From NCBI RefSeq assembly GCF_029278565.1, contig NZ_CP119559.1:1798001-1862000 (forward strand): a DNA stretch of 64,000 bases, in the 5' to 3' direction. This document shows, in pieces, positions 49,341-61,757 of this stretch. The position numbers and the translations under genes were made by a program. Below the pieces are notes generated by a model. It ran no database searches and was not told where the DNA came from. It saw only the letters and a program-made list of their open reading frames with translations. The DNA comes from Haloarcula halophila. Its GTDB lineage: Archaea > Halobacteriota > Halobacteria > Halobacteriales > Haloarculaceae. The first letter of the stretch is position 1. The number at the start of each line of letters is the position of its first letter.

Positions 49341-51839
49341 ATGGCGACCGCCGAAAGCGGGGAGTACCTCGACCGGCCGCTGGTGACCCAGGGGTTCCTG
49401 GAGAACCGTCGGTACCAGGTCGAACTGGCCGAGACCGCCGGCTCAAGCCACACGCTCGTCTGTCTCCCGACCGGCCTCGGGAAGACGACCGTCTCGCTGC
49501 TCGTCACGGCCCAGCGACTCCACAGCGTCGGCGGCACCTCGCTGATGCTCGCACCGACGAAACCGCTCGTCCAGCAACACGCCGAGTTCTACCGCGAGGC
49601 GCTCACCGTCCCCGACGACGAGATCGTCGTCTTCACCGGCGAGGTCAGACCCGACGACCGGGCCGCCCTCTGGGAGGACGCCCGCGTCGTCATCGCGACC
49701 CCACAGGTCGTCGAGAACGATCTGGTCGGCAACCGTATCTCGCTTGCCGACGTGACTCACTGCACCTTCGACGAGTGTCACCGCGCCACCGGGAACTACG
49801 CCTACAACTACATCGCCGAGCGCTACCACGCGGACGCGACCGACCCGCTGGTGACCGGGATGTCGGCCTCGCCGGGCGACGACGAGGAGGCGATCCTCGA
49901 AGTGTGTGAGAACCTCGGGCTCTCGGAGGTCGCGGTGATGACCGAGGACGACGCCGACGTCGCCGACTACACCCACGACACCAGCGTCGAGTGGAAACGG
50001 ATCGAACTCCCCGAGGTGGTCGTCGAGATCCGGGACGCGATCAACGAGGTCGTCGCCGACCGGCTCGAACAACTGAAGGAACTGGGCGTGACCAACAAGT
50101 CCTCGCCGGACCTCTCCGAGCGGGAGATCCAGGGGATGCAAGCAGAGCTCCGGCAGTTGATGGACAACGACCAGAGCGAGGGCTACCAGGGGATGAGCCT
50201 GCTCGCCGAGATCCGGAAGCTTCGGACCGCAGTCACCTACATCGAGACCCAGAGCGTCGAGTCCCTGCGGCGGTACTTCGAGCGGTTGAAAGAGGCCGCC
50301 CGTTCCTCCGGTGCGTCGAAGGCCGACCAGCGACTCGTCAGCGAACCAAAGATCCGCGAGGCCATCCGGAAGGCCCGGGAGTACGACGACCTCCATCCGA
50401 AGTTCCGCCGGACCCGGATGTTGCTCGCCGAAACGTTGGGCATCGAGAACGGCGAGCGGGTCATCGTCTTCACCGAGTCCCGGGACACCGCCGAGACGCT
50501 CGTGGACTTCCTCTCGAACCACTTCGAGACCGAGAAGTTCGTCGGCCAGAGCGACACCGACGGGAGCGATGGAATGACACAGACCCAGCAACAGGAGACG
50601 CTGGATCGGTTCCGGGCCGGCGAGTTCGAGGTACTCGTCTCGACCTCCGTCGCCGAGGAGGGGCTGGACGTCCCCGAGGTCGACCTGGTGTTGTTCTACG
50701 AACCGGTCCCGACGGCGATCCGGGCCATCCAGCGAAAGGGCCGGACGGGCCGGCAGGCCGAGGGGCGTGTGGTCGTCTTGCTGGCCGAGGACACCCGCGA
50801 CGAGGCCTACTTCTGGAAGGCCCGTAACGACCAGAAACGGATGCAACAGGAGCTACAGGACCTCAAGAGCGTCGCCGGCGACCTCGAAGCCGAACTCGAC
50901 CAGACCGGGCTGGACGACTACGAGGACGGCGGCGGTTCCGGGTCAGCCGGCAGTGACGGCGACGGTTCGGATGGAGACGGGGACGGAGCGTCGCGTGGAA
51001 ACGGCGGGCAGGCGGTCGCTTCCGAATCGGACGCTCCAACCGAAACGGGGGGCAACGGCCAGGCGGGCCTGGACGCGTTCGCCGGCGAAGCGACGCCGGA
51101 AGGTGGATACGACGGCGGCGACGATGCTGGAGCCGACGACGCCGCGGACGACGGCACGGTCGCGACGGCCGACAGCGACGACGAGACCGTCGAGATCGTC
51201 GCCGATCAGCGGGAACTGGACGCGACGATCGCCAGGGACCTCTCGACCCGCGAGGGGATCAAGACCCGCCTGGAGACGCTGGCCGTCGGCGACTACGTCC
51301 TCTCGGATCGGGTGATCGTCGAACGCAAGACCGTCTCGGACTTCCTCGATACGCTGACCGGCGGCGACCGCTCGATGTTCGAGCAGGTCGGCGACGCTAC
51401 GCGCCACTACGCCCGTCCCGTCGTCGTCATCGAGGGTGGGGACCTCTACGGCGCCCGGAACGTCCACCGGAAGGCGATCCAGGGGGCGCTCTCGTCGTTG
51501 TCGGTCGATTTCGGTGCCAGCGTCCTCCAGACCGCCGACGAGGACGAGACTGCGGACCTCTTAGAGACCATCGCACAGCGCGAGCAGGAAGAGGCCGACC
51601 GCGAGGTCAGCGTCCACGGCGAGAAACAGTCCCGGACGCTGCCCGAACAACAGGAGTACGTCGTCGCCGCGATCGGCGAGGTCGGCCCGGTCACCGCCCG
51701 GTCGCTGCTCGAACACTTCGGGAGCGTCGAATCCGTCCTGACTGCCGACGAGGAGGAGCTACAGGCGGTCGACGGAGTCGGCTCGGTGACCGCAGAACGG
51801 ATCAGAGAGGTCGTCGGCGGCGACTACCACGACGGGTAG
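49341..51839 (+). CDS. hef: Hef: helicase fused to XPF-type nuclease
   Basis: 832 residues. It processes stalled replication forks. Helicase part (about 1-510): LVCLPTGLGKTTVSLLVTAQ (Walker A), FDECHRATGNYAY (DECH), AEEGLDVPEVDLVLFYEPVP and QRKGRTGRQ (motif VI). An acidic Gly/Ser linker (about 530-615) follows; its codons near residue 564 contain an origin-box-like sequence at 51033-51053. The ERCC4 nuclease (about 620-760) has the active-site GDYVLSDRVIVERKTVSDFLDTL (V-E-R-K-x3-D), and a HhH2 domain (about 770-832) closes. A TATA-like TTAACC precedes the ATG 49341. Confidence 0.94.
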   Translation: MATAESGEYLDRPLVTQGFLENRRYQVELAETAGSSHTLVCLPTGLGKTTVSLLVTAQRLHSVGGTSLMLAPTKPLVQQHAEFYREALTVPDDEIVVFTGEVRPDDRAALWEDARVVIATPQVVENDLVGNRISLADVTHCTFDECHRATGNYAYNYIAERYHADATDPLVTGMSASPGDDEEAILEVCENLGLSEVAVMTEDDADVADYTHDTSVEWKRIELPEVVVEIRDAINEVVADRLEQLKELGVTNKSSPDLSEREIQGMQAELRQLMDNDQSEGYQGMSLLAEIRKLRTAVTYIETQSVESLRRYFERLKEAARSSGASKADQRLVSEPKIREAIRKAREYDDLHPKFRRTRMLLAETLGIENGERVIVFTESRDTAETLVDFLSNHFETEKFVGQSDTDGSDGMTQTQQQETLDRFRAGEFEVLVSTSVAEEGLDVPEVDLVLFYEPVPTAIRAIQRKGRTGRQAEGRVVVLLAEDTRDEAYFWKARNDQKRMQQELQDLKSVAGDLEAELDQTGLDDYEDGGGSGSAGSDGDGSDGDGDGASRGNGGQAVASESDAPTETGGNGQAGLDAFAGEATPEGGYDGGDDAGADDAADDGTVATADSDDETVEIVADQRELDATIARDLSTREGIKTRLETLAVGDYVLSDRVIVERKTVSDFLDTLTGGDRSMFEQVGDATRHYARPVVVIEGGDLYGARNVHRKAIQGALSSLSVDFGASVLQTADEDETADLLETIAQREQEEADREVSVHGEKQSRTLPEQQEYVVAAIGEVGPVTARSLLEHFGSVESVLTADEEELQAVDGVGSVTAERIREVVGGDYHDG
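51033..51053 (+). repeat. Origin-recognition-box-like motif in hef linker
   Basis: GCTCCAACCGAAACGGGGGG, plus one more base, matches the core TCCA-N2-YGAAAC followed by a G-run. It lies in codons for a disordered linker, 5.8 kb from the strong box at 56833. Confidence 0.6.
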
Positions 51840-56540: not shown

Positions 56541-56574
56541 CCTCCCCCCCCCACCCCTTCGTTTCGAGTGGAAC
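56541..56574 (-). repeat. Origin recognition box 1
   Basis: Minus strand reads GTTCCACTCGAAACGAAGGG continued by GTGGGGGGGGGAGG. It is the left partner of the inverted pair and closely matches the box at 56833. Confidence 0.9.
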
Positions 56575-56644
56575 AGCAACACCCCGTGGGATGGGTGCCG
56601 GTGAAAGCAGGGCCGGAGAGGAGAGAGCGGAGTGGGAGTGGCCG

Positions 56645-56790
56645 CGCGCTAGAGGGAAACTAGGTATATCTAGCGTAGACTGGTTGTAACACTAGTACAG
56701 CACAGGAGTAGTCTAAAAGAGTATCTTTTCTTTCTGGTGCGGCTTTGGTTTATACGTATAGTATATAAATCCTTCCTAGTCCAGACGCGT
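56645..56790. other. Candidate DNA unwinding element
   Basis: Locally AT-rich DNA between the two strongest boxes, with AAAAGA-GTA-TCTTTT, TATACGTATA and TATATAAATCC. Conspicuous in a GC-rich chromosome and placed where haloarchaeal origins melt. Confidence 0.65.
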
Positions 56791-56832
56791 AATCGCCAGC
56801 CTCCTCCCCCCCAACCCCCGGTCAGTTTCGCC

Positions 56833-56864
56833 GTTCCACTCGAAACAAAGGGGTGGGGGGGGTT
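56833..56864 (+). repeat. Origin recognition box 2
   Basis: GTTCCACTCGAAACAAAGGG continued by GTGGGGGGGGTT. Inverted relative to box 1, sharing the 14-base core GTTCCACTCGAAAC exactly. Confidence 0.9.
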
Positions 56865-57185: not shown

Positions 57186-57206
57186 TTTCCACCCGAAACG
57201 GGGGGG
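57186..57206 (+). repeat. Origin box just before orc1
   Basis: TTTCCACCCGAAACGGGGGG plus one G. It lies 14 bases before the orc1 ATG and could block transcription or translation when bound. Confidence 0.75.
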
Positions 57207-57219
57207 TTCACCGACCACA

Positions 57220-58788
57220 ATGACCGACCCAATCGATCGATCGACTGGAGACCAGGACTCGTCGTCAGAGGCAGACAGCGCCCGGTCTGCCGATTCCGAC
57301 CAGGACACCGACGCCGATACGGAGACGCCCCCGACGAGCCCCCCTGATCTCGACGATGTCGTCTTGGACAATCTCGATACCGGGTCCGACGGCTCCGACG
57401 AGGCCTCCCGTGGACTGTTCGACGATCTCCTGGAGGGTGAACCGATATTCGAGAACAAGGAGGTCCTTCGCCCCTCCTACACTCCCCACAAGCTCCCCCA
57501 TCGGGAAGAGCAGATCAACAACATGGCGACGATCCTGGTCACGGCACTCCGTGGGGATACGCCGTCGAACATCCTCATCTACGGGAAGACCGGGACGGGA
57601 AAGACCGCCAGCGCGAAGTTCGTCAGCGAGGAACTGGAGACGACCTCCCAGAAGTACGAGGTCCCCTGTGAGGTCGAGTACATCAACTGTGAGGTGACTG
57701 ACACACAGTACCGGGTACTGGCTCAGTTGGCGAACAAGTTCATCGACAAGAACACCGAGGTGATCGACGACCGGGTCGCGGAACTCGACGACTTGCGCTC
57801 GCGTGCCCGCGAAGACGAAACAGCACTCGACGGGACGGAGTTCACCGGTGTCGAGGGGATCGACGAGCGGATCGAGTCCTTAGAGGAAGACAAAGCGGGA
57901 TTCGAGGAGGTCCCTATGACCGGGTGGCCGACCGACCGCGTCTACAGTTCGTTTTTCGACGCCGTTGACTACCACGAACGCGTCGTGGTCATCATGCTCG
58001 ACGAGATCGACAAACTCGTCGAGAAATCCGGCGACGATACGCTCTACAATCTCTCGCGGATGAACTCGGAACTGGAGAACTCCCGGGTGTCGATCATGGG
58101 GATCTCGAACGATCTGAAGTTCACCGACTTCCTCGACCCCCGTGTCAAGTCCAGCCTCGGCGAGGAGGAGATCGTCTTCCCACCGTACGACGCGAACCAG
58201 CTTCGGGACATCCTCCAGGCCCGCTCGGACGTCGCGTTCAAGGGCGACGCGCTCTCGGACGACGTCATCCCGCTGTGTGCGGCCTTCGCCGCTCAGGAGC
58301 ACGGCGACGCCCGGCGTGCGCTGGATCTCCTCCGGACCGCCGGCGAACTCGCCGAACGTGGGCAGACCGACCAGGTCGAGGAGGCCCACGTCCGCCAGGC
58401 CCAGGAGAAGATCGAACTCGACCGCGTGGTCGAGGTGGTCCGGACGCTGCCGACCCAGTCGAAGATCGTCCTCTTTGCGATCATCCTCCTGGAGAAAAAC
58501 GGGGTCCACAGCATCAACACCGGCGAGGTGTTCAACATCTACAAGAACCTCTGTGAGGAGATCGACGCCGACGTGTTGACACAGCGGCGGGTGACTGACC
58601 TCATCTCGGAACTCGACATGCTCGGGATCGTCAACGCGGTCGTCGTCTCGAAGGGGCGGTACGGGCGGACCAAGGAGATCTCGGTGTCGGTTCCGACTGA
58701 GGAGACAGAAGCCGTGTTGCTGTCGGACTCGCGACTGGGTGATATCGAAGACGTCCAGCCGTTCGTCCAGGCCAGGTTCGACAACTGA
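57220..58788 (+). CDS. orc1: Orc1/Cdc6 origin-binding initiator
   Basis: 522 residues. An acidic N-terminal tail (1-75) is followed by an AAA+ domain: LPHREEQINNMATILVTALR, Walker A IYGKTGTGKTASAKF (about 122-129), Walker B VVIMLDEIDKLVEK and sensor-1 VSIMGISNDLKFTDF. Lid: AAQEHGDARRALDLLRTAGE. A C-terminal winged helix (about 415-520: LLEKNGVHSINTGEVFNIYK, YGRTKEISVSVP) recognises the boxes. Start ATG 57220; an upstream GTG frame from 57121 reads a basic peptide over the origin box and is rejected. This is the initiator that belongs to the adjacent origin. Confidence 0.95.
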   Translation: MTDPIDRSTGDQDSSSEADSARSADSDQDTDADTETPPTSPPDLDDVVLDNLDTGSDGSDEASRGLFDDLLEGEPIFENKEVLRPSYTPHKLPHREEQINNMATILVTALRGDTPSNILIYGKTGTGKTASAKFVSEELETTSQKYEVPCEVEYINCEVTDTQYRVLAQLANKFIDKNTEVIDDRVAELDDLRSRAREDETALDGTEFTGVEGIDERIESLEEDKAGFEEVPMTGWPTDRVYSSFFDAVDYHERVVVIMLDEIDKLVEKSGDDTLYNLSRMNSELENSRVSIMGISNDLKFTDFLDPRVKSSLGEEEIVFPPYDANQLRDILQARSDVAFKGDALSDDVIPLCAAFAAQEHGDARRALDLLRTAGELAERGQTDQVEEAHVRQAQEKIELDRVVEVVRTLPTQSKIVLFAIILLEKNGVHSINTGEVFNIYKNLCEEIDADVLTQRRVTDLISELDMLGIVNAVVVSKGRYGRTKEISVSVPTEETEAVLLSDSRLGDIEDVQPFVQARFDN

Positions 58789-60200: not shown

Positions 60201-61757
60201 GTGTCGACCGTGCCTCTGGAGACGCCGGCACGCATCGTCAGCGAACTCGCCAGCCGCGGCTACAACGCCGAGCGCGAAGCGATCACCCGGATCGCCGACA
60301 CGGCCGACCCACAGGCGACCCTCGATCGCGCACTGGAAACGATGCCGTCGGACGCGTTGAAACTCACTGCCGACCACGTCGACCAGGTCCGAACCGACGA
60401 ACAGCCCGCCGATAGCCGGGGAAGCCCGGGGCCGGCTGGTGGCGGTGTCGACGACCCCTCCGTTTCGACTGGAAACGACCCGCCGAAATCGACTGACGTG
60501 GGGGGACAGTCTCCACCTGAAACAAGGGGGTCTCGCGACGTCGATCCCACGCTCCGTGCGATCGAGGTCGCCAACGACATGACCGGCCACTCGACGGGGA
60601 CCGGGGAGTACCAGGACTTCGTGAAGGTGTTCCGGGACCGCTACGAGAAACTCTCCGCGCACCTGCGTGGCCGAGTCAACCACCGACCGACCGACGCCAT
60701 CGAGCGGATGGGCGGGGGAAGCGAGGCCGCGCTCGTCGGGATGGTCTCGGACATCCGGACGACCGCGAGCGGCCACTGGCTCGTCGAACTGGAAGACACC
60801 AACGGGACCTTCCCCTGTCTGGTGATGAAAGACCGGCCGATCGCCGATCTCGTCCAGCAACTCCTCTTCGACGAGGTCATCGCCGTCGAGGGGACTCTGG
60901 CCGACGACGGTGGCATCCTCTTCGTCGACTCGCTGTACTTCCCGGATATCCCACGAACCCACAGCCCGTCGACGGCGGACCGGCACGTCCAAGCGGCGCT
61001 GATCTCGGACGTCCACGTCGGGAGCCAGGAGTTCATGGCCGACGCCTGGCACCGGTTTACCGACTGGCTCCACACCCCCGAGGCCGAACACGTCGAGTAC
61101 CTGCTGATCGCCGGCGACATGGTCGAGGGGGTCGGTGTCTACCCAGACCAGGACGAGGAACTGGACATCGTCGACGTCTACGAGCAGTACGAGCGGTTCT
61201 CGGAGTACCTCACGGAGGTGCCGGGCGACATGGAGATCCGAATGATCCCGGGCAACCACGACGCGGTCCGGTTGGCCGAACCACAGCCGGGCTTCGACGA
61301 GGAGCTCCGGGAGATCATGACCGCCCACGACGCCCAGGTCCACTCGAACCCGGCGCTGGTGACGGTGGAGGGCGTCACCATCCTGATGTACCACGGCGTC
61401 TCTCTAGACGAGGTCATCGCCGAACTCCCCGACGAGGAAGCCAGTTACGACGAGCCACACAAGGCGATGTACCAGCTCTTGAAGAAACGTCACGTCGCCC
61501 CCCAGTACGGCGGTCACACCCGTCTGGCGCCGGAAGACCGGGACTATCTGGTCATGGAGGAGGTTCCCGACGTGTTCCACACCGGCCACGTCCACAAGCT
61601 GGGCTGGGGGAAGTACCACAACGTCCTGGCGTTGAACTCCGGGTGTTGGCAGGCCCAGACCGACTTCCAGAAGTCCGTCAACATCGACCCCGACGCCGGT
61701 TTCGCGCCGATCCTGGATCTGGATACGCTGGAGATGACTGTCCGGAAGTTCGCGTGA
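60201..61757 (+). CDS. polB: DNA polymerase D small subunit (DP1)
   Basis: 518 residues. It carries the 3'-5' proofreading exonuclease of PolD. N-terminal helix-rich domain (1-75: ARIVSELASRGYNAEREAIT), Pro/Gly/Asp linker (about 77-125), OB-like region (VGMVSDIRTTASGHWLVELE) and a calcineurin-like domain: LISDVHVGSQEFMADA, IAGDMVEGVGVYPDQ, MIPGNHDAVRL and VFHTGHVHKLGW. Metal-binding residues are complete. Linker codons contain two inverted origin-box-like motifs (60454-60476 and 60510-60531). Start GTG 60201. Its partner DP2 is at 37751. Confidence 0.94.
   Translation: MSTVPLETPARIVSELASRGYNAEREAITRIADTADPQATLDRALETMPSDALKLTADHVDQVRTDEQPADSRGSPGPAGGGVDDPSVSTGNDPPKSTDVGGQSPPETRGSRDVDPTLRAIEVANDMTGHSTGTGEYQDFVKVFRDRYEKLSAHLRGRVNHRPTDAIERMGGGSEAALVGMVSDIRTTASGHWLVELEDTNGTFPCLVMKDRPIADLVQQLLFDEVIAVEGTLADDGGILFVDSLYFPDIPRTHSPSTADRHVQAALISDVHVGSQEFMADAWHRFTDWLHTPEAEHVEYLLIAGDMVEGVGVYPDQDEELDIVDVYEQYERFSEYLTEVPGDMEIRMIPGNHDAVRLAEPQPGFDEELREIMTAHDAQVHSNPALVTVEGVTILMYHGVSLDEVIAELPDEEASYDEPHKAMYQLLKKRHVAPQYGGHTRLAPEDRDYLVMEEVPDVFHTGHVHKLGWGKYHNVLALNSGCWQAQTDFQKSVNIDPDAGFAPILDLDTLEMTVRKFA
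60454..60476 (-). repeat. Origin-box-like motif in DP1 linker, left of pair
   Basis: Minus strand GTTTCCAGTCGAAACGGAGG plus GGT. It contains TCCAGTCGAAAC then a G-run. It faces the motif at 60510 and lies 3.6 kb from the strong box at 56833. Confidence 0.6.
60510..60531 (+). repeat. Origin-box-like motif in DP1 linker, right of pair
   Basis: TCTCCACCTGAAACAAGGGG plus GT, a full match to TCCA-N2-YGAAAC with G-run. With the one at 60454 it forms an inverted pair 33 bp apart, mirroring the layout at oriC. Confidence 0.65.

Follow-up and report, generated by a model that had tools for sequence, protein, structure and literature searches.

The nearest known parallels to the sequence pair analyzed here include the inverted ORBs of archaeal origins. 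ORB2 and ORB3 of Sulfolobus oriC1 are inverted, and each is bound by one Orc1-1 monomer with a defined polarity; they lie on either side of an AT-rich element that carries the ucm motif, and they fire, with Orc1-1 steering MCM into the region between them. In the haloarchaeon Haloarcula hispanica, the minimal oriC1 loses function when either G-string is mutated (PMC3936714), and the published marker-frequency profile of the delta-oriC1 strain lost its peak with no other active chromosomal origin emerging. In this organism oriC1 is readily deleted but cdc6A only with great difficulty, from which the authors infer "a vital function of Cdc6A outside" oriC1. Non-origin ORBs have a precedent in oriC2D, downstream of oriC2-cdc6E in H. 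hispanica, an ORB-rich region outside the origin and beyond the initiator gene, which is proposed to control the initiator and negatively controls oriC2 (PMC3936714). In E. coli, datA and DARS1/2 are short initiator-binding cassettes off the origin that control the initiator. A 2012 survey of haloarchaeal origins covered only intergenic regions adjacent to orc genes, so that sites within DP1, of the type described below, would be missed; we found no earlier description of the DP1 boxes in the open-access literature searched.

The window, a 64,000-nucleotide stretch of the Haloarcula halophila genome (contig NZ_CP119559.1), contains oriC1, the orc1/cdc6 gene, and a DP1 gene with two short ORB cores (Table 1). 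The preliminary description had reported an inverted, outward-facing box pair in the DP1 gene, and the pair is present as claimed; the gap between the 20-bp cores is 36 bp, or 33 bp by the wider edges used in that description. The window DP1 is 85-86% identical to those of Halomicroarcula rubra and Haloarcula pellucida. The boxes are N-terminal to the structured part of the protein: alignment with solved DP1 structures starts only at residue 137, which places them in the N-terminal linker.

Table 1. Features of the oriC1-DP1 region, in window coordinates.
Feature	Position	Strand	Details
Left short ORB core	60455-60474	minus	TTCCAGTCGAAACGGAGGGG; 5' end inward, G-run outward; 0 mismatches to core pattern; peptide DPSVSTG
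Spacer between DP1 boxes	60475-60510		36 bp, GC 64%; sequence unconserved, length fixed
Right short ORB core	60511-60530	plus	CTCCACCTGAAACAAGGGGG; G-run outward; 1 mismatch to core pattern; peptide SPPETRGS
DP1, PolD small subunit	60201-61757	plus	NF003116, E=8e-295; boxes at about codons 84-110
orc1/cdc6, oriC1-type initiator	57220-58788	plus	NF001625, E=4e-196; presumed reader of the boxes
oriC1	56554-56853		Long inverted ORBs at 56554-56573 (minus) and 56834-56853 (plus), each with a second G-string, around 260 bp of 54% GC
Single short ORB core in orc1 leader	57187-57206	plus	Third exact core match, beside the oriC1 pair

The DP1 boxes match the ORB core TTCCAnnnGAAACnnaGGGG, as scored with a weight matrix trained on oriC1 boxes only. 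The core pattern TTYCANNNGAAACNNRGGGG had four exact matches in the 4.04-Mb genome, all within 4 kb: the two oriC1 boxes, the box at 57187 in the orc1 leader, and the left DP1 box at 60455. With up to two mismatches allowed, the whole genome contained 36 matches, compared with 4 for the reversed control pattern. The leader box lies immediately before the orc1 ATG, and a plus-oriented box recurs in the orc1 leader of many relatives, which suggests initiator autoregulation. Weaker ORB-like boxes occur in genes on the opposite side of oriC1 at 51034 (plus), 52824 (plus), 52930 (minus), and 55047 (minus); those at 51034 (Hef) and 52824 (a zinc-ribbon-type protein) are in linkers.

We compared the window gene with 80 DP1 loci from named haloarchaeal genomes, nearest by DP1 similarity (81 genes in all), and the best inverted pair in each was located with the weight matrix, whose training set was the oriC1 boxes of 63 of these loci. 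Since the sampled loci are related, their counts are not independent events, and the argument rests on the varying neighbor sites, spacer, and free box positions. The best pair was inverted in 81 of 81 genes and its gap was 36 bp in 79 of them (33 bp in L082 and 54 bp in L105); the linker around the pair ranged from 14 to 83 codons upstream and from 10 to 46 downstream. Conserved columns of the DP1 alignment formed two islands of about 21 bp with an unconserved spacer between them. Both boxes exceeded a fixed score in 58 genes, all of them inverted with outward G-runs and 56 with identical spacing; all 134 boxes above this score fell within the first 480 nt of the gene, and the remainder of DP1 had none. 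An exact-spacing pattern with no more than two mismatches matched 228 of 391 genomes of the class, nearly always once (counted as genomes with a match to the pattern), against 0 of 391 for the reversed control, and the same pattern with a gap of 43 N in place of 42 N also matched 0 of 391. Outside the class, among other classes of the phylum, three genomes matched at three mismatches, the same number as for the reversed control and therefore at the level of chance. The conservation in sister species on which the preliminary description had made its proposal depend was found in all 24 sampled genomes of the window's genus, and most of the class Halobacteria keeps the box pair at the same position, in the same orientation, and with the same spacing. 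The pair is not indispensable everywhere, given that ten of ten DP1 genes of one genus (g20 of family f4; L127-L136) have a near-perfect right box with the left box gone and that the DP1 pair is degenerate in Haloferax and Halorussus. In four of the Haloferax loci with a degenerate pair (L085, L087, L094, and L102), a box TCTCCAGTTGAAACGAAGGGGTAG is found at the same place, near 18.88 kb in locus coordinates and some 7 kb past DP1.

The peptides PSVSTG and SPVETKGS recur among the DP1 genes, consistent with a reading in which protein-level conservation or linker codon bias was the cause and ORB likeness a by-product; the Hef linker also has sporadic ORB-like matches (plus strand in about 8 of 30 loci). 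The coding pattern within the boxes refutes this reading. The left-edge codon of the right box, codon 19, specifies S, T, A, V, D, F, G, or P and yet is NNT in 79 of 79 species, although elsewhere in DP1 the commonest of its T-ending codons account for only 3-6% of their synonymous families. Codon 3 in the left box (V, A, T, I, or N) is likewise NNT in 79 of 79, codon 22 is GAA in 79 of 79, and Lys, Glu, Gly, and Arg interchange at a codon for which the box requires purine-purine-G. Residues vary at the free positions of the ORB consensus and are fixed at the fixed ones. Among 200,000 synonymous recodings of the window sequence, none reached the observed pair score of 62.3 (best recoding, 33.6), and the observed score exceeded every one of 200 recodings in 80 of 81 genes, the exception being L105, whose 54-bp gap misfits the 36-bp scoring. 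Because rare third bases remain fixed while residues change and no recoding attains the score, selection acts on the DNA rather than on the peptide or codon bias; across most of the class Halobacteria, DNA-level selection that does not depend on the peptide has kept the pair. Chance and codon bias are excluded by the recodings along with the class-wide position, orientation, and spacing, in agreement with the earlier statement that an inverted pair is not to be expected from linker codon bias, and with the spacing fixed at 36 bp the by-product reading keeps almost no probability. A replication-gene regulon with Hef as its second conserved member was also considered and rejected, because the Hef-linker matches are scattered, with no constant position or strength.

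The fixed bases of the two boxes are complementary, and folding of the window sequence is slightly stronger than that of shuffled versions (z of -1.95), as might be seen if the boxes were retained because they pair as a hairpin in DP1 mRNA. However, compensatory changes between the arms were sought at the variable positions and none were found, the paired fraction there being that of shuffled partners. The lack of covariation at free positions indicates that the boxes are not kept as an RNA stem. Genus g20 retains the right box alone, and the box motif is that of the oriC1 ORBs, both of which also argue against the hairpin, and we regard it as extremely unlikely.

The DP1 pair shares its core motif, its orientation with G-runs outward, and its presumed initiator with haloarchaeal oriC1 (oriC1-cdc6A), and the inverted arrangement is common to Sulfolobus ORB2/ORB3; such likeness led to the proposal of a miniature or dormant origin, at which Orc1 on the inverted pair would recruit MCM and replication would start at DP1. 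The preliminary description considered the pair exactly like that at oriC, which holds for the orientation but not for the boxes, since the second G-string found at oriC1 (GGGGTGGGGGG) is missing from those in DP1. Following GGGGT, the DP1 boxes read TCGTCGAC or CTCGCGA as opposed to GGGGTGGGGGGG at oriC1, and the median extension score was -14.3 for DP1 boxes versus +8.8 at oriC1. Mutation of the second G-string kills oriC1 plasmid replication in H. hispanica (PMC3936714). The boxes are 36 bp apart compared with 178-606 bp at haloarchaeal oriC1, and the spacer is GC-rich (64% in the window and a median of 67% in 79 species), which bears out the earlier observation that no AT-rich segment lies between them; both the AT-rich region of haloarchaeal oriC1 and the AT-rich element and ucm motif of Sulfolobus are missing. 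By the ORB polarity of the Sulfolobus model, MCM would be driven into this spacer, and 36 bp would presumably be too short for two MCM rings. The absence of any other active origin in the H. hispanica delta-oriC1 profile also speaks against initiation at DP1; that profile bears on the DP1 site only if the pair is present there, and 24 of 24 sampled congeners carry it. The DP1 pair as a miniature origin is not supported, and we judge it very improbable.

The pair is not directly adjacent to orc1/cdc6. It is situated inside DP1, which places it directly downstream of the initiator gene in the window and many other genomes, but not in those with DP1 at a distance. In Halorarius halobius, the pair lies at 963.3 kb and oriC1 at 1048.6 kb (85 kb apart); the corresponding positions are 1499.4 kb and 1368.9 kb in Halorarius litoreus (130 kb apart) and 682.8 kb and 669.6 kb in Natronomonas gomsonensis. 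The pair is intact in all three. Its persistence where DP1 lies far from oriC1 indicates that the pair follows DP1, not the origin. This result weighs against the idea of a structural site, in which Orc1 at DP1 would pair with Orc1 at oriC1 (handcuffing) or organize or segregate the origin region, with no regulation of DP1 and no titration of Orc1. Inverted geometry with exact spacing would suit such a site, as would the proximity of the pair to oriC1 in many genomes, but distances of 85 and 130 kb leave the pair no less intact, and a structural role appears improbable. Strict core matches in nine genomes totaled 52 (0 for the reversed control), of which 14 were in DP1, a sizeable share of the predicted Orc1 sites. 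Elsewhere, a second inverted ORB-like pair is present in the window's own genome at C1:2005515 (minus) and 2005622 (plus) (L148), 107 bp start to start and about 1.1 kb past radA, and Haloarcula rara (L139) has one strict box just past the radA 3' end. In two Halorarius species (L137 and L140), a serB-like gene is closely followed by a strict ORB core, and in L140 a TBP gene comes next.

The pair is probably a dedicated Orc1/Cdc6A-binding site, not an origin, within the DP1 coding sequence, as predicted from its motif, geometry, and conservation. We infer Orc1 as the likely reader of the boxes from their family-specific motif. The oriC1 initiator Orc1/Cdc6A would bind each box as a monomer, and two Orc1 monomers, facing each other across 36 bp, would form a complex of fixed geometry. 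Such a complex would not be expected to fire, because the site has neither an AT-rich element nor a second G-string, and two MCM rings would not fit between the boxes.

The control exerted by this putative Orc1/Cdc6A site could take two forms. In cis, the complex may gate transcription through DP1 according to the level of Orc1, a tentative proposal that is favored by the pair staying with DP1 wherever DP1 goes and by the location of the lone g20 box, also in DP1. In trans, the complex might hold or process Orc1 and so limit initiation at oriC1, which we consider possible but rather less probable; the oriC2D precedent in H. hispanica and the large share of strict boxes favor it. Sequence comparison cannot separate action in cis from action in trans. 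Several points count against a control site: the pair is incomplete or degenerate in some genera, two boxes are a small reservoir for titration, and an archaeal operator would not usually lie 250 bp into a gene.

As in an oriC2D-like region, several ORBs are found outside the origin, in this case two boxes at DP1. The sites differ in that the ORBs of oriC2D belong to the Cdc6E family and form an intergenic cluster, whereas DP1 has two Cdc6A-family boxes that are intragenic, of exact geometry, and class-wide. Haloarchaeal oriC1 differs in turn from the DP1 pair, which is inside a gene and can be 85-130 kb from orc1. The E. coli cassettes offer only an analogy for the predicted DP1 site, since they have no homology to it and serve a different initiator. 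It is conceivable, though unlikely, that the pair is an archaeal counterpart of DARS/datA, in which the fixed geometry would dimerize Orc1/Cdc6A, control its activity or nucleotide state, couple it to polymerase D synthesis, and form part of the vital role of Cdc6A apart from oriC1.

The limits on oriC1 firing in archaea are poorly known, and the DP1 pair offers a concrete candidate site for the unnamed vital role of Cdc6A outside oriC1, one that can be tested by synonymous mutations in a harmless archaeon amenable to genetics.
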